Positions 22,290 to 29,343 of a stretch of 64,000 bases of DNA are shown here, in pieces. Source of the stretch: Myxococcus stipitatus (GTDB taxonomy: Bacteria; Myxococcota; Myxococcia; Myxococcales; Myxococcaceae); the NCBI RefSeq assembly GCF_021412625.1, contig NZ_JAKCFI010000009.1, positions 248,001-312,000 of the forward strand. The letters run 5' to 3'. Position numbers and translations under genes: made by a program. Within the stretch, counting starts at the first letter, position 1, and the number at the start of each line of letters is the position of its first letter. A model generated the notes under the pieces. The model was given only the letters and a program-made list of their open reading frames with translations. It ran no database searches and was not told the origin of the DNA.

Positions 22290-24053
22290 TCACGGGGCCG
22301 AGCGAGCCACGAGGTACAGGAACACGCCGAGGAACAGGAGCAGCGCGAGCCCCACGTGGCTGAGCTGACGCAGGTTCGCCTCGCCATCGTCGGCCTCGTG
22401 CAGCAGCTTCGCTCGCAGCCGGGCGAAGCGGTCCAGCATGCGGTCACCCCAGGTCTCCTCCTCGGGCTCCGGCACGACCTGGTCCGTCTCGCGCGTCATG
22501 AAGGCCCACACCGGGTGGACCAGCCGCTCCACGAACCACAACAGGTCCCCTGGTGGCACCTCGGGCACGCGCCACGCGCGGCGCCGCGCGAAGAGCACCG
22601 CGAGCACACTCAGCAGGAGGCCGAGCAGCACGGGCCAGGCCGCGGACACCAGGTTCTTCGCCTCGAGCAGGGGCGGCAGCTCCGCCGCTCCCACCGGCGG
22701 CCTCAGGAACACGCCCGTGTCCACCGCCAACAGGAGCACCCAGGACGCGAGGAGGACACCCGCTCCCCCCTTCCCTTCCTTCGCTGTCCCCGGGACGACG
22801 CGCACCAGGAAGCGGGCCATGATGAGGCTGCTCCCCACCGCGGCCAACGACAGCAGCGTCGGCAGCGCGTCCGACGCATGCGCGGCGGCCTCCGCGGACT
22901 TGAGCGTCAGCTTCGCCCACGCGCCGCTCGTCAGCGGCGCCCCGGCAATCTCCAACGCGGCCCACCCCAGCCCCACCAGCACCACCGCGCCCCGCCAGCC
23001 GCCCCTCCCCGTGGCTGGCAGCAGCCCCGTGCCGAGGAACAGGAGCCCCTTGGCCAGCGAATGGTGCGTGGCATAGACGAGGACCGCGACGACGAGCGCG
23101 GACGCGGCCTCGGGCGCCCCCAGCGCCAACCCCACCGCGAGGGTGAGGAACCCCATCTGGCTGATGCTGGAGTAGGCCAGTACGGCCTTGGCATCCCGCT
23201 GCGTGAGCCCCACGGCGACGCCATAGAACGCGGACGCCAGCCCCACCACGACACACACCGAGCCCACCCCCACCAGACTCGCGAACCCCAGGGGCAGGAA
23301 CCGCAGCCAGCCCAGCACGCCCACCTTGATGATGGTGCCGCTGAGCACCGCGCTCGCGGGCGTCGGCGCCACCGGGTGCGCCAGCGGGAGCCACAGGTGC
23401 AGGGGAATGGCGCCCACCTTCACGCCGAACCCCACGAGGATGAGCGCGCTGATGAGGTCGCGATGGGGTGACTGCGCCACCCACCGTGGCACCTCCGCCA
23501 ACGCCAGGTCGATGCGCGTCCCCGCGATGAGGAAGAAGGCCGCCAGCAGGAGCGCCTCCCCCAGCAGCGCCATGACCAGGTAGACGCGCGCGGCGCGGGC
23601 GGCGCGGGGCGTGCGCTCGTGGACGACGAGCCCATACGCACAGAACGTCATCATGGCGAAGAAGAGGTAGAAGCTCGCGACGTCCTGCGCGAGCACCGCC
23701 CCGACGTTCCCCATCAGCGTCGAGAGGAAGAAGCCCCAGAAGGACACGCGGTGCCCATCCTCGCGCAGGTACCCATGCGCGAAGAGCCCGGACAGCAGCC
23801 ACAACGCCCCGGTGAAGAGCAGGAAGGTGCGCGTGATTTCGTCGTCCGCGTACAGCCGCATCCCCAGCAGCACGGGCTTCCAGTCGACAGGCGTCCCCGA
23901 CGCCAACGCCAGCCACACCGTGGGCAGCGCGGCCCAGGGCGCCAACCACAGGGCCACCGCGCGCGACGTGGGCCACATCACCCCCAGCGTCAACACCAGC
24001 GGCACACCGAGCGCCGCGATGACCGGGAGCGAGTCCACGACGAAGGCGCTCAC
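22290..24053 (-). CDS. Mrp-type antiporter third NuoL/M/N-like subunit (lacks TM5 glutamate)
   Basis: 587 residues from a GTG at 24053 that overlaps the previous stop as GTGA. It is a polytopic membrane protein of the proton-conducting transporter family, with lysines in GFGVKVGAIPLHLWLP and SGTIIKVGVLGWLR and a C-terminal extension (RMLDRFARLRAKL) ending in one more membrane helix. The key glutamate in TM5, present in the two sister subunits as LELMT and YEMLT, is replaced by Ala133 in FFAMMTF. This residue is essential for ion transfer in NuoL/M/N and MrpA/D. So this subunit may be structural or may use another residue. It is the last gene of the operon and takes the place of a split MrpA large subunit. 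Confidence 0.85.
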   Translation of the reverse strand: MSAFVVDSLPVIAALGVPLVLTLGVMWPTSRAVALWLAPWAALPTVWLALASGTPVDWKPVLLGMRLYADDEITRTFLLFTGALWLLSGLFAHGYLREDGHRVSFWGFFLSTLMGNVGAVLAQDVASFYLFFAMMTFCAYGLVVHERTPRAARAARVYLVMALLGEALLLAAFFLIAGTRIDLALAEVPRWVAQSPHRDLISALILVGFGVKVGAIPLHLWLPLAHPVAPTPASAVLSGTIIKVGVLGWLRFLPLGFASLVGVGSVCVVVGLASAFYGVAVGLTQRDAKAVLAYSSISQMGFLTLAVGLALGAPEAASALVVAVLVYATHHSLAKGLLFLGTGLLPATGRGGWRGAVVLVGLGWAALEIAGAPLTSGAWAKLTLKSAEAAAHASDALPTLLSLAAVGSSLIMARFLVRVVPGTAKEGKGGAGVLLASWVLLLAVDTGVFLRPPVGAAELPPLLEAKNLVSAAWPVLLGLLLSVLAVLFARRRAWRVPEVPPGDLLWFVERLVHPVWAFMTRETDQVVPEPEEETWGDRMLDRFARLRAKLLHEADDGEANLRQLSHVGLALLLFLGVFLYLVARSAP

Positions 24054-25531
24054 GGCCGGAACTCGCGCTCGGTGATGAGCTTCGTCCACCCCAGCGGGCT
24101 CAGCTCCGCGCCCGCGAACAGACCCGCCGCCAGGGACAACAGGGCCGTCGCCACCGTGGGCAACAGCAACGCGGGCCCCACCTCCCAGCGCCGGGCCTTG
24201 GGCGCCCACGGCTCGACCGGAGACTGGAACCACGCCGTGTAGAGGATGGGCAGGAAGTAGCCGGCGTTGAGCAACGTGCTCATCAGCAGCACCGCCACCA
24301 ACCAGGGCTCCCGCGCCTCCAGGGCGCCGATGCCCAGGTACCACTTGGTGATGAAGCCCGCGACCGGCGGAATGCCAATCATCCCCAGCGCGCCGACGGT
24401 GAAGGCCGCCATGGTGAGCGGCATCCTCCGCCCCACCCCCCGCAGCTCCGTCACCCGATGCACGTGCAGCTCCTCCGCCAGGTTCCCCGCGCAGAAGAAC
24501 AACGTGATCTTCATCAACCCCTGATGCACCAGGTGGACCAGCCCGCCAATCGTGGACACCGAACCGAAGATGGAGACGCCGACGACGATGTACGCGACCT
24601 GGCTCACGGTGGAGTACGCCAGCCGTCGCTTCAGGTCCCCTTGCTGGAGCGCGCGCAGCGAGCCGTAGAGGATGGTGACCGCCGCCACCACCGCGAGCGG
24701 GTGCAGCACGCCCAGGTCATGGACCAGGTACACGCCGAAGACGTCGTAGATGACGCGGGTGATGCCGAAGGCGCCGGCCTTCACCACCGCGACCGCGTGC
24801 AGCAGCGCGCTGACCGGCGCGGGCGCCACCATGGCCACCGGCAGCCACCCGTGAAAAGGCACCAACGCCGCCTTCACCGCCAACCCGCCGATGAGCAACG
24901 CGAAGGCCACCGTCAGCTCCACGTGACGCCCCGCCACCCCGTCCAGCGCGCCGCCCTCCGTGAACTCCACCGAGCCCGCGAGCGTGTACAGCAGCGCCAC
25001 CCCCGCCAGCAGCAGCGTGGCGCCGCTCAACGTGTAGCGCAGGTAGACGTTGCCCGCGCGCAGCGCCTCCGGCGTCCCCCGGTGGATGACGAGCGGGTAC
25101 GTCGACAGCGTCAGCATCTCGTAGAACAGGAAGAAGGTGACGAGGTTGCCCGCCATGGCGATGCCCATGGTCGAGGCGACACACAGGGAGAAGAAGCCGA
25201 AGAAGCGGCTGCGGTGGGGCGTGCCCTCCAGGTAGCCCACCGCGTAGATGGTGGTGACGAACCACAGCACCGCGGACAACGTGATGAACAGCAGGCTGAA
25301 GGTGTCCGCGCGCAGCACCAGGTCCGCATTGGGAAGGAACGTCACCCGCGTCTCGTACCGGCGCCCGTGGAACACGCCCCAGGCCATGGCGGCGGTCAGC
25401 AGCAGCTTCGTCACCGCGGCGGTGAGGTTGAGCAGGGTGCGCGGGACGCGCTGCTCCTCGGCGAGCAGGAAGATGACCAGCCCGGGGAGCAACGAGCTGA
25501 GCAGCACCGCCATCGGCAGCCAGGTGTTCAT
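24050..25531 (-). CDS. mrpD: Mrp-type cation/proton antiporter subunit D (second NuoL/M/N-like)
   Basis: 493 residues; its ATG at 25531 overlaps the previous stop by four bases. It is a member of the proton-conducting transporter family with about 14 membrane helices. The TM5 glutamate E138 is present in FFLFYEMLTLS, the TM7 lysine in LAVKAALVPFHGWLP, and SALLHAVAVVKAGAF is the motif typical of MrpD. The protein forms part of a membrane complex that exchanges Na+ or K+ for protons. Which of the three sister subunits is the true MrpD cannot be settled by eye; this one has the best match at the HAVAVVKAG helix. Confidence 0.87.
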   Translation of the reverse strand: MNTWLPMAVLLSSLLPGLVIFLLAEEQRVPRTLLNLTAAVTKLLLTAAMAWGVFHGRRYETRVTFLPNADLVLRADTFSLLFITLSAVLWFVTTIYAVGYLEGTPHRSRFFGFFSLCVASTMGIAMAGNLVTFFLFYEMLTLSTYPLVIHRGTPEALRAGNVYLRYTLSGATLLLAGVALLYTLAGSVEFTEGGALDGVAGRHVELTVAFALLIGGLAVKAALVPFHGWLPVAMVAPAPVSALLHAVAVVKAGAFGITRVIYDVFGVYLVHDLGVLHPLAVVAAVTILYGSLRALQQGDLKRRLAYSTVSQVAYIVVGVSIFGSVSTIGGLVHLVHQGLMKITLFFCAGNLAEELHVHRVTELRGVGRRMPLTMAAFTVGALGMIGIPPVAGFITKWYLGIGALEAREPWLVAVLLMSTLLNAGYFLPILYTAWFQSPVEPWAPKARRWEVGPALLLPTVATALLSLAAGLFAGAELSPLGWTKLITEREFRP

Positions 25532-26952
25532 CGCGCCGTCCCCACCGCCAGCAGCTCCAGCGGGAACCAGGGCACCAGCCCCAGCACCAACGCGATGAGC
25601 GCCAGCGCCAGCGGCGCCAGCTCGTTGCCCAGGGGAATCGAGCGGACCTTCACGCCGGGGGGCAAGGGCAGGAACGAGCCCCGGAGGATGCGGAAGACAT
25701 ACGCCGACGCCAACAGCCCTCCCAGCAGGAGCACCAACCCCCACCACCACTGCCCCGTCCAGATGGACTCCTCCAGGAGGATCCACTTGGCGATGAAGCC
25801 ACCACTGGGCGGCATGCCAATCAGGCTGATGCCCCCCAGCGCCATGGCCAGGAACGTGAACGGCATGCGGTACGCCAGCCCCTGCACGCCCCCCAGCTCC
25901 GTGATTCCCACCGCCTGGTGGATGTTGCCCACCGCCACGAACATGGAGGCCTTCGCCGCGGCGTGGGAGACGACCAGGTACACCGCCCCCGTCCGGGCCC
26001 CCACGGTGGCCATGGGGAAGAACAGGAACATGTAGCCAATCTGCGCGACGCTCGAATACGCGACGACGCGCTTGAGCTGCGACTGGCTCAGCGCCAGCAG
26101 CGAGCCCCACAGCACCGCCGCCGCGCCCAGCACGCCCAGCAACTGCCCCACCTGCCAGTCGAGGATGGGCGTGAAGACCTCCAGCCATAGCCGCAGGAGC
26201 ACGTAGTACGAGCCCTTCGACACCAGCGCCGACAGGAGCGCGGTGACGGGCGTGGGCGCCCCCGTGTACGTCGGCGGCAGCCACACGTGGAGCGGGAACA
26301 GCGGCGTCTTGAGGCACAGCCCCAGCGTCATCAGCGCCGCGGCCACCCACGCCACCGGCCCCGGGGTGATGCGCTGCCCCAACAGCCCCAGGTCCAGCGC
26401 GGAGTAGACGCCGTAGAGCAGCGCCACGCCCAGCAGGTACAGGAGCGAGCCCGGCAGCGCGAAGAGCAGGTAGCGCAGCCCCGCGTCCAGCCCCGCCCGG
26501 TCGCGCCGCACGGCGATGAGGGCCACGGAGGCCAGCGTCATCAACTCCAGCGTCACGTAGAGGTTGAAGGCATCCGCCGACAGCACCAGCGCGTTGAGCG
26601 CGCACCAGACGAAGAGCCACAACGGCAGGAACTCGCGGTCCTCCCGGTCGCCCAGGTGGTCCAGCGCGTGGACGCTGATGAGCGGCCCCACCACGCCGAT
26701 GGTGAGCAGCATCAACACGGCCAGCCCGTCCGCGCGCCACTCGATGCCCAGGGGCGGCCCCCACCCGCCAATGGACTGGCGCAGCACCCCGCGCGTGGCC
26801 ACCTCCCAGGTGAGCATCACGGACGCGGCGAACGTCGCCACCGACGCGAGCCCCGCCACGACGCGCACCCCCTTGCGCCCCACCAGCAGCGCGAGCACCG
26901 CGCCCGCCAGGGGGAGTACGACCGGCCACGCCATCCAGGCCGTGGGGTTCAT
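25528..26952 (-). CDS. Mrp-type cation/proton antiporter subunit D (first NuoL/M/N-like)
   Basis: 474 residues from the ATG at 26952, overlapping the stop of the MrpC gene by four bases. It is a proton-conducting transporter family protein. E136 in LYVTLELMTLAS and the TM7 lysine in LCLKTPLFPLHVWLPPTYTG are both present, as is a lysine in LLSALVSKGSYYVLLRL. In Mbh-like operons the gene right after the MrpC homologue encodes MbhH/MrpD, so this position would be the canonical one. The following two genes are extra copies of the same family. It acts in the cytoplasmic membrane. Confidence 0.87.
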   Translation of the reverse strand: MNPTAWMAWPVVLPLAGAVLALLVGRKGVRVVAGLASVATFAASVMLTWEVATRGVLRQSIGGWGPPLGIEWRADGLAVLMLLTIGVVGPLISVHALDHLGDREDREFLPLWLFVWCALNALVLSADAFNLYVTLELMTLASVALIAVRRDRAGLDAGLRYLLFALPGSLLYLLGVALLYGVYSALDLGLLGQRITPGPVAWVAAALMTLGLCLKTPLFPLHVWLPPTYTGAPTPVTALLSALVSKGSYYVLLRLWLEVFTPILDWQVGQLLGVLGAAAVLWGSLLALSQSQLKRVVAYSSVAQIGYMFLFFPMATVGARTGAVYLVVSHAAAKASMFVAVGNIHQAVGITELGGVQGLAYRMPFTFLAMALGGISLIGMPPSGGFIAKWILLEESIWTGQWWWGLVLLLGGLLASAYVFRILRGSFLPLPPGVKVRSIPLGNELAPLALALIALVLGLVPWFPLELLAVGTAR

Positions 26953-27281
26953 CCCGCGCCCCCGCCCGCCTCGGCGTCCGACCCGGCGCGCCCCTCCTCG
27001 GCCGTCTCGTCGAGCCGGGCGATGCGCCGGGCGAGCGCCACGCCCAGCGCGGTGGAGCTGACCGACACCACGATGCCCGTGAGCACCAGCGCGTGCGGCA
27101 CCGGGTCCGGCGTCCCCGTCGGCTCGCGCCGCGCCAGCGACACCAGCACCAGCAACACGCCGGAGCCCATGATGTTCGAGGCGAGGATGCGCTTCACCGG
27201 GTGCTCGTGGGAGAACAGCCCCACCAGCCCCACGCTGAACACCGTCACGCCCGACAGCGCGTAGAGGACCCACGGGTTCAT
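26949..27281 (-). CDS. mrpC: Mrp-type antiporter subunit C (NuoK-like)
   Basis: 110 residues, start ATG at 27281 overlapping the previous stop. It is a small protein of three membrane helices (LYALSGVTVFSVGLVGLF, RILASNIMGSGVLLVLVSLA, PHALVLTGIVVSVSSTALGV) of the NuoK/MnhC family, with the usual N and P-H-A-L-V-L-T segment. It sits between the MrpB-like and MrpD-like genes, as in all Mrp and Mbh operons. The last 20 residues are a charged, Gly/Ala-rich tail. Confidence 0.92.
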   Translation of the reverse strand: MNPWVLYALSGVTVFSVGLVGLFSHEHPVKRILASNIMGSGVLLVLVSLARREPTGTPDPVPHALVLTGIVVSVSSTALGVALARRIARLDETAEEGRAGSDAEAGGGAG

Positions 27282-28210
27282 GGCGCCTTCCCCCCCGACA
27301 CCCGGGCGGGCCGCACCCCGGGGAAGAACATCAGCAACACCAGCGCGATGGTCGCCGTCAGCGCCAGCTCCACGACGAAGATGAGCGTGCCCGCGAGGTC
27401 GCGCCGGTACTCGAGCAGGTCGCGCCCGGAGAACAGCGGCGCCACCGCCACCGCGATGAACAGCAAGGGCCCGGTGAGCAGCACCACCCGCACGCGCCAC
27501 GAGGACAACCGGGGTGCCCCCATCTGCAGCGTGAGGAGGGCCACCACGCCTCCTCCCGCCAGGATGGCCCCCGCCTGGAACGCGCCCCCGGGGCCATGCT
27601 CCCCCACCCACACCAGGTAGCCGGCGACGAGCAGCAACGCGGGCACCATCATCCGGAACAGCTCCCCCGTCAGCGGGTCGCGCGCGGGCTCCGGCGAGGG
27701 ACGCTCCGTGCGCGGGTTCACCGCCCGGGCCCCCAGCGCCGCCACCAGGAGCACCGCTATCTCCAGCAGCGTGTCGTAGCCCCGGAAGTTGAGCAGCACC
27801 GCCGTGACGGGGTGCTCCACTCCGCTCCGCGCCAGCCGGGCATCCACCTCGCGCGTCAGCCCCGGGTCGTCCGGCGGCAGCGCGAGCACCGCCCACCCCA
27901 GCACGCCCGTCAACGCCGCCAGCGCCAGCAGCGACCCGGGCCTGCGCCGGGCGCGCGCGACGATGTCGGGCGGGCGCTCGTCCGTCCAGCTCAGCGTGTG
28001 CATCAACAAGGCCCCGGTGAGGCCGGTGCCCACCGCCGCCTCCACGAGCGAGATGTCGGGAGCGTCCAGCCGCGCCCAGCCCAGCGCGGCCAACAGCCCC
28101 AGCGCGACGAAGAGCACCACCGCCTGGGACAGCGACTCGGTGCGCAGCACCATCCACGCCAGCAGCGGCAGGCACAACGCGAGGCACGCGTCGAAGAGGG
28201 CCATCGTCAT
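27278..28210 (-). CDS. Mrp-type antiporter subunit: MbhD/DUF4040 fused to MnhB
   Basis: 310 residues from the ATG at 28210 (ATGA overlap with the MrpG stop). The first ~90 residues match the MbhD/DUF4040 segment that forms the C-terminal part of MrpA in Bacillus (DISLVEAAVGTGLTGALLM). A middle section with LLNFRGYDTLLEIAVLL fits MbhE. The last ~140 residues are MnhB (GGAFQAGAILAGGGVVALL, FFPGV). So the membrane segments that in Bacillus lie at the end of MrpA are here fused to subunit B. This explains why the operon has no full-length MrpA. Confidence 0.88.
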   Translation of the reverse strand: MTMALFDACLALCLPLLAWMVLRTESLSQAVVLFVALGLLAALGWARLDAPDISLVEAAVGTGLTGALLMHTLSWTDERPPDIVARARRRPGSLLALAALTGVLGWAVLALPPDDPGLTREVDARLARSGVEHPVTAVLLNFRGYDTLLEIAVLLVAALGARAVNPRTERPSPEPARDPLTGELFRMMVPALLLVAGYLVWVGEHGPGGAFQAGAILAGGGVVALLTLQMGAPRLSSWRVRVVLLTGPLLFIAVAVAPLFSGRDLLEYRRDLAGTLIFVVELALTATIALVLLMFFPGVRPARVSGGKAP

Positions 28211-28521
28211 GGCGGGCGCCGCCCCGTCCAGGGCGCCGCCCCCCGGCGCAGCGCCGCCCGGGCGACCAGCTGGCAGGTGAAGGCGCTGGAGATGAGCACG
28301 AAGAACCAGACGAGCAGCAGCTCGAGCGCCGTCGCCCAGGAGCCCGACTGGAGCGCCAGCCCCAGCACCACCAGCCCCAGCCCCAGGTTGTCCACCTTGG
28401 TGAGGGCGTGCAGGCGACAGTAGACATCCGGGAAGCGCAGCACCCCCACCGTGCCCGCCAGGGTGAAGAAGGCCCCGGCGAGCATCAGCGCCGCGCACAC
28501 TCCGTCCAGGAGGGCGCTCAT
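28207..28521 (-). CDS. mrpG: Mrp-type antiporter subunit G
   Basis: 104 residues, ATG at 28521 overlapping the MrpF stop by four bases. It has the MnhG/PhaG pattern: a first helix (ALMLAGAFFTLAGTVGVLRF), the conserved PDVYCRLHALTK loop, then two more helices. It is a small accessory subunit of the membrane antiporter complex. The C-terminus is Arg/Pro-rich. It is third in the operon. Confidence 0.93.
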   Translation of the reverse strand: MSALLDGVCAALMLAGAFFTLAGTVGVLRFPDVYCRLHALTKVDNLGLGLVVLGLALQSGSWATALELLLVWFFVLISSAFTCQLVARAALRRGAAPWTGRRPP

Positions 28522-28796
28522 CGCCGCTCCCGCTCCGAGGCCTCGCCGCCCACCGCGAAGCGCACGAACGCGACGACGGTGACGGGCGCCAGCAGCGCGA
28601 ACACCAGCGCCACGTCGCGCAGCGCCGCCTGCCCGGGGGCCGCGGCCAGCAGGACGAGCACGCCCACCCCCGTGGTGCCGAACAGCTGCGCCACGATGAA
28701 GCGGTCGGTGAGCGAGGGCCCCAGGACGACGCGCACCAGGCCCGCGAGGATGTTGAGAAGCAGGAACAGCGCCAGCCCCATCCGCAGCTCAGCCAT
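28518..28796 (-). CDS. mrpF: Mrp-type antiporter subunit F
   Basis: 92 residues from the ATG at 28796, which lies eight bases inside the end of the MrpE gene. The MnhF/PhaF pattern is clear: three helices with VVLGPSLTDRFIVAQLFGTTG and a following DVALVFALLAPVTVVAFVRF. An open frame upstream of this ATG is only the shadow of the MrpE gene. Confidence 0.93.
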   Translation of the reverse strand: MAELRMGLALFLLLNILAGLVRVVLGPSLTDRFIVAQLFGTTGVGVLVLLAAAPGQAALRDVALVFALLAPVTVVAFVRFAVGGEASERERR

Positions 28797-29343
28797 GCGT
28801 GGCCTCCCGGGGCGGGAGCCGCAGGCCGAACAGCCGCGACACGCGCCACTCCAGGTCATCCAGCTCGTGGTGCAGCCCCTCGCCCCGGTCCACCAGCGCG
28901 TGGACCACCACCTCGTCCCCATCCACGTCCGCGTTCAACGTCCCGGGCATCAGGCTCAAGGTGATGCGGAACAACGTCTGGGGCGCGCCGGAGGGCAGGC
29001 GCATCCGGTAGCGGATGAGGACGGGGGAGATGGGCAGGCTCGGCAGGAGCGCCCGGTAGGCCACGTCCGCGCCTCCCCGAACCGAGCCGGAGAAGAAGAA
29101 GAGCGCGAAGCGCAGCACCTCCAGCGGCGACCACCCGCCCGGACGCGGCGGGCTCAACCGGAAGCTCACCCACGCCACCGCCGCCACGACGAACACCCCG
29201 AACGGGACGCTGCTCGGGTCCGCGTCACACAGGGCCCACCACGCCGTGGCCAGCAGCACGACGCGAATCCCCGCGTTCACCCAGGCCCCGGACCGCCACC
29301 AGGGCCCGCTCCCTCGCTCCGTGTCTGAGTCCCGTTGCGCCAC
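28789..29343 (-). CDS. mrpE: Mrp-type antiporter subunit E, first gene of the operon
   Basis: 184 residues. Two N-terminal membrane helices are followed by the MnhE soluble part, which has [39 protein letters not shown] and HALVD. This is the usual MnhE/MbhA layout. The start is the ATG at 29343, just after the first gene's promoter region. No gene for hydrogenase or complex I redox subunits accompanies the operon, so it encodes a stand-alone antiporter and not a respiratory or hydrogen-evolving complex. Likely role: Na+/K+ and pH homeostasis. Confidence 0.9.

Follow-up and report, generated by a model that had tools for sequence, protein, structure and literature searches.

A Myxococcus antiporter-like subunit without the TM5 glutamate, and a conserved TM6 glutamate as the probable partner of its TM7 lysine

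The role of the TM5 glutamate in complex I and Mrp complexes is debated, with views ranging from an essential proton carrier to a dispensable gate. A locus of Myxococcus stipitatus bears on this debate: within the window (the whole 64,000-nucleotide stretch that was analysed), three antiporter-like subunits are encoded side by side, and the third, here D3, has an alanine where its two sisters have this glutamate. A preliminary description proposed that such a loss should break the standard Glu–Lys pair, and that the subunit may therefore not conduct ions or may use a different path. We accordingly asked whether D3 is likely to be a working subunit and, if so, which residue could partner its TM7 lysine.

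The D3 gene belongs to a compact minus-strand operon that comprises eight genes for membrane proteins and runs from 29343 to 22290:

28789..29343, minus strand: MrpE-like subunit
28518..28796, minus strand: MrpF-like subunit, starting at an internal Met
28207..28521, minus strand: MrpG-like subunit
27278..28210, minus strand: fusion of MbhD, MbhE and MnhB domains (the C-terminal part of MrpA plus MrpB)
26949..27281, minus strand: MrpC/NuoK-like subunit, PF00420
25528..26952, minus strand: D1, first antiporter-like subunit, with the standard E136/K215 and Ser169 at the TM6 place
24050..25531, minus strand: D2, second antiporter-like subunit, with the standard E138/K220 and Ala171 at the TM6 place
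22290..24053, minus strand: D3, third antiporter-like subunit, PF00361, 587 aa, GTG start at 24053

The GTG start of D3 overlaps the stop of D2. From the open reading frames read by eye, ileS follows D3 on the opposite strand, and upstream of the operon lies a divergent hydrolase gene; none of the neighbouring frames inspected is a hydrogenase or quinone-binding gene adjoining it. The gene set of an Mrp (CPA3) operon is found together here, namely MrpE, F, G, C and MnhB/MbhDE along with MrpD-like genes. The operon has no full-length MrpA carrying the C-terminal MbhD/E region, because MbhD–MbhE–MnhB forms an open reading frame of its own and the three antiporter-like genes are separate. D3 belongs to PF00361, scoring 141 bits against a curated cut-off of 21.5, and its best NCBIfam score is to NF005086 (HyfB / 'hydrogenase 4 subunit B'), at 180 bits, where the cut-off is 667. 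An AlphaFold2 model of D3 (mean pLDDT 77.4), used for fold comparison alone, has its best PDB matches in MrpA, NdhF, NuoL and MrpD.

The residue that raised the question is:

23655..23657, minus strand: Ala133, codon GCC, the TM5 residue standing where the glutamate is expected

Its placement opposite E136 of D1 (codon 26545-26547) and E138 of D2 (codon 25118-25120), as originally described, is borne out by every alignment. In a multiple alignment with the E. coli homologs, which reproduces the published numbering E144, E144 and E133 for NuoL, NuoM and NuoN, Ala133 lies opposite these three residues and HyfB E142, HyfD E143, HyfF E143 and HycC E135. Pairwise alignments likewise place a Glu opposite it in the solved MbhH, MbsH, NdhF and two MrpD chains, and a profile–profile alignment against a NuoL set gives the same TM5 register. 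The wider comparison thus leaves D3 with no acid at this position, and D3 has lost the standard pairing of a TM5 glutamate with the TM7 lysine, which an alanine cannot form.

We then considered how widespread this state is. Direct searches recovered D3 relatives in other Myxococcus species, a Lujinxingiaceae bacterium, an Azoarcus MAG, Microbacterium and Hoyosella. A profile search (E <= 1e-60) then gave matches in 31 of the 346 Actinomycetota genomes, 14 of the 398 from Pseudomonadota and 6 of the 141 from the phylum to which the Lujinxingiaceae bacterium belongs. At the weak end, the actinomycete matches under 290 bits are Glu-bearing outgroups and were excluded as members. The resulting 55 distinct members span Myxococcota, Bradymonadales, Pseudomonadota and Actinomycetota. 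At position 133 they have Ala (39), Ser (8), Thr (7) or Val (1), and never an acid, while 215 of the 222 other sampled PF00361-type proteins have the TM5 acid. Judged by these sequences, the missing glutamate is more than chance, because every distinct relative shares a neutral residue that replaces an acid missing in only 7 of the 222 others. One apparent exception, with a TM5 Glu and a TM6 Gly, proved to be a D2–D3 fusion scored at its D2 half.

Against this loss stands a set of conserved charges, including one that the preliminary description missed, the TM6 glutamate; they are listed here with Leu163, a second place where a NuoL charge is absent:

23565..23567, minus strand: Leu163, the counterpart of NuoL Arg175; V, L, I or M in the family
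23556..23558, minus strand: Glu166 in TM6, codon GAG, opposite Asp178 of E. coli NuoL in the alignments; candidate to replace the TM5 glutamate as partner of the TM7 lysine
23418..23420, minus strand: Lys212, key lysine of TM7, aligned with NuoL K229; invariant (55/55)
23325..23327, minus strand: Lys243, lysine of TM8 (53/55)
22911..22913, minus strand: Lys381, lysine of TM12 (55/55)

D3 has all three key lysines, K212 in TM7, K243 in TM8 and K381 in TM12 (where either Lys or Glu is expected); the TM7 lysine remains just as first described. The channel histidine, H331, is likewise invariant or nearly so in the 55 relatives, as are the broken-helix motifs. Glu166 is present in all 55 and is the sole wholly invariant carboxylate of the family, so that a neutral TM5 residue (A/S/T/V), the TM6 Glu and the TM7 Lys occur jointly in 55/55 members. 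MAFFT and the profile–profile alignment agree on its register with NuoL Asp178. In complex I, Asp178 salt-bridges Lys229 and is the closest bridge to that lysine in NuoL (PMC13324432), whereas Glu144 has Arg175 as its partner, at the contact with the neighbouring subunit; the E. coli distances are 3.3 Å for K229–D178, 4.8 Å for K229–E144 and 2.9 Å for R175–E144 (PMC13324432). The corresponding pairs of Thermus Nqo12 are Lys216/Asp166 and Arg163/Glu132 (PMC11496545; PMC5938582). D3 thus has the NuoL-type TM6 acid at the place that partners the TM7 lysine, and lacks the second pair of TM6 Arg175 and TM5 Glu144, having Leu163 and Ala133 instead.

In the sample of 277 PF00361-type proteins, absence of the TM5 acid goes with a kept TM7 lysine in 56 of the 56 proteins that have a TM6 acid and in 0 of the 5 that lack one, a contrast that is dominated by one clade and inflated because the sequences are related, with only four TM5 changes on the tree. 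With 4 pairs, independent events are too few for a tree-based sign test that sets TM5 loss beside TM6 gain. Other altered subunits were encountered in this survey. Three NuoM-like subunits (L124, L125 and L138) have no TM5 acid and an Arg replacing the TM7 lysine; their genes adjoin DabB/NuoL-like genes, and they represent another altered type of antiporter-like subunit. A second-type subunit (L058, 1-1281) has a TM5 Gly (GGG) with a TM6 Glu, while its close relatives carry both acids; this is suggestive of a possible independent case of the TM5/TM6 swap, seen in a single sequence and resting on a single base. The archaeal MBS chain 6u8y_H has a Glu aligned with the TM7 lysine.

In the phylogenetic tree, the D3 family forms one clade with full support. 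Its nearest neighbours, joined with moderate support (82-85), have the TM5 Glu with a TM6 Gly or Asp, and both the TM6 acid and the TM5 loss map to one long stem branch of the family. It is plausible that the TM6 acid was gained before the TM5 Glu was lost, with the neighbours bearing TM5 Glu and TM6 Asp representing intermediates. Trees grouping D3 with DabB-type proteins (AU p 0.003), or placing D3, NuoL and DabB in one clade (AU p 0.006), were rejected. As the D3 family is not nested with DabB/NuoL, its residue arrangement arose separately.

The genomic contexts of the family are also conserved: a D2-type gene lies directly upstream of D3 in 50/55 cases, and the operon order is the same in six relatives with flanking sequence, while in five actinomycetes MrpE comes after D3 rather than leading. 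In one actinomycete genome (G350), D2- and D3-type subunits are joined in a single 1079-aa open reading frame (L037, 1486-4722, minus strand), which suggests that D2 and D3 are neighbours within the complex. Within its own phylum, D3, taken as the operon marker, is found in approximately 11 of roughly 27 Myxococcus genomes and is absent from every other genus sampled; this patchy presence among Myxococcus genomes points to frequent gain or loss. The D3 gene is under purifying selection, with dN 0.127, dS 0.489 and dN/dS ~0.26 against its relative L011. Decay of a single gene was rejected as an explanation, given this ratio and the conservation of the Ala133 change in the 55 relatives.

Taken together, the sequence patterns and the analogy with NuoL make it rather likely that D3 works as an antiporter-like subunit in a cation–proton complex of the Mrp/MBH type, in which the partner of the TM7 lysine is on TM6 (Glu166) and not on TM5. 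Its pump part is probably rewired rather than broken, and the TM6–TM7 pair most likely replaces the lost Glu–Lys pair, the proximity of Glu166 and Lys212 being inferred from NuoL. D3 would thus keep the inner pair, Lys212–Glu166, equivalent to NuoL Lys229/Asp178, and would have dropped the outer pair, with Ala133 and Leu163 at the places of Glu144 and Arg175. Lys212 could then still gain and lose charge, while the loss of the outer pair would simplify and loosen the gate toward the TM12 lysine of the upstream neighbour. An open, easily conducting state would probably be favoured, in line with the proposal made for DabB2 and with the behaviour of the Nqo12 E132Q mutant.

Other readings of the same residues have to be set beside this one. 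That the alanine reflects a misalignment or an annotation artefact, with the true TM5 carboxylate elsewhere, is extremely improbable: Asp124, considered as a substitute, is indeed found in 54/55 relatives, but the acids at its aligned position in D1, NuoM and MrpD occur alongside the TM5 Glu, so that it is no replacement, and the TM5 motif is gapless in alignments by three independent methods. We also regard it as unlikely that D3 is a non-conducting, structural subunit in which Glu166 serves folding or assembly alone. Such a role would sit well with mutations of the TM5 Glu of NuoL and NuoM, which impair complex I (cited in PMC3046159), and with the faster divergence of D3 than of its sisters, seen both in identity to L011 (82% against 96% for D1 and 94% for D2) and in dN/dS (~0.26 against 0.12 and 0.07 for the sisters). 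However, the near-invariance of the TM7, TM8 and TM12 lysines, H331 and the broken-helix motifs speaks against it, as does the loss of the TM7 lysine, which D3 keeps, from all the sampled subunits that have neither acid (5/5). These features, with the purifying selection and the invariant TM6 Glu, count against the earlier suggestion that D3 may not conduct ions, as do the precedents of Nqo12 E132Q and DabB2 described below; the suggestion of a different path fits Glu166 at the NuoL Asp178 position.

A further alternative, to which we give little credence, is that D3 conducts without any partner for its lysine, the TM5 Glu being a dispensable gate and Glu166 having another role, such as cation binding. 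A subunit without the TM5 Glu may require no compensating change, because NuoL E144Q and MrpA E113Q made little difference when complementation was assayed in B. subtilis, growth and sodium extrusion being nearly normal with MrpA E113Q (PMC4938563). Moreover, isolated Nqo13 E123Q and Nqo12 E132Q show increased proton conduction in liposomes (PMC11496545), and the Lys/Glu pairs of Mrp have been proposed to be regulators outside the proton path (PMC7419157). Yet the faster Nqo12 E132Q mutant retains its TM6 Asp166 (PMC11496545), and the absolute invariance of Glu166 at the very place of NuoL's direct lysine partner is hard to accommodate. The reading with Glu166 as the partner of Lys212 is thus the one we carry forward.

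On that reading, the D3 family is a natural experiment, having no TM5 Glu across phyla and always an acid one helix away. Together with DabB2 and Nqo12 E132Q, it suggests that the TM7 lysine needs some nearby carboxylate, not necessarily on TM5. The principle of dispensing with the TM5 Glu while keeping the TM6 acid has already been described for DabB2; in the literature searched, we found no publications on the D3 family. Tentatively, and with less confidence than in the function of D3 itself, we envisage an unnamed, widespread family of Mrp-type subunits in which the partner carboxylate of the lysine shifted from TM5 to TM6 independently of DabB, and which could form part of a permanently open three-module cation–proton exchanger whose inter-subunit coupling is unlike that of Mrp and complex I. 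In Mrp, the coupling point comprises the TM7 Lys with its acid and the TM12 lysine of the neighbour (PMC7419157).

Among known systems, DabB2 of the DAB2 CO2-uptake complex is like D3 in having a neutral residue for the TM5 Glu while keeping the TM7 Lys and a TM6 acid. It is functional with Ile151 at the TM5 place and Lys235/Asp185 retained, and it loses half of the growth yield when the Glu is restored (PMC13144422). A functional homolog with a non-acidic TM5 residue, if not an alanine, thus tells against the expectation that such a loss is disabling. DabB2 differs from D3 in its TM6 acid being Asp, its partner DabA, the lack of an equivalent of the TM9-13 bundle and its separate branch in the tree. 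NuoL, Nqo12 and ND5 share with D3 the overall fold and the TM6 acid at the place pairing with the TM7 Lys, but keep the second pair of TM5 Glu and TM6 Arg, both of which D3 lacks. MrpA and MrpD resemble D3 in the PF00361 fold, the key lysines and the operon partners MrpE, F, G, C and MnhB; however, Mrp has two antiporter-like subunits, both with the TM5 Glu, whereas the Myxococcus operon has three, and the TM6 place, Glu in D3, is taken by Gly, Ser, Thr or Ala in the sampled MrpA and MrpD types. HyfB has a core homologous to D3 but carries E142 and S175, and D3 falls far under its curated cut-off. Proteins named 'complex I subunit 5 family protein', such as the plasmid-borne one of Rubrobacter radiotolerans, are of the same kind as D3, under a generic name that is silent on the residue change. 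Finally, the Mrp-derived half of the membrane-bound hydrogenases shares the gene order of the D3 operon, to which the latter adds two extra antiporter-like genes.
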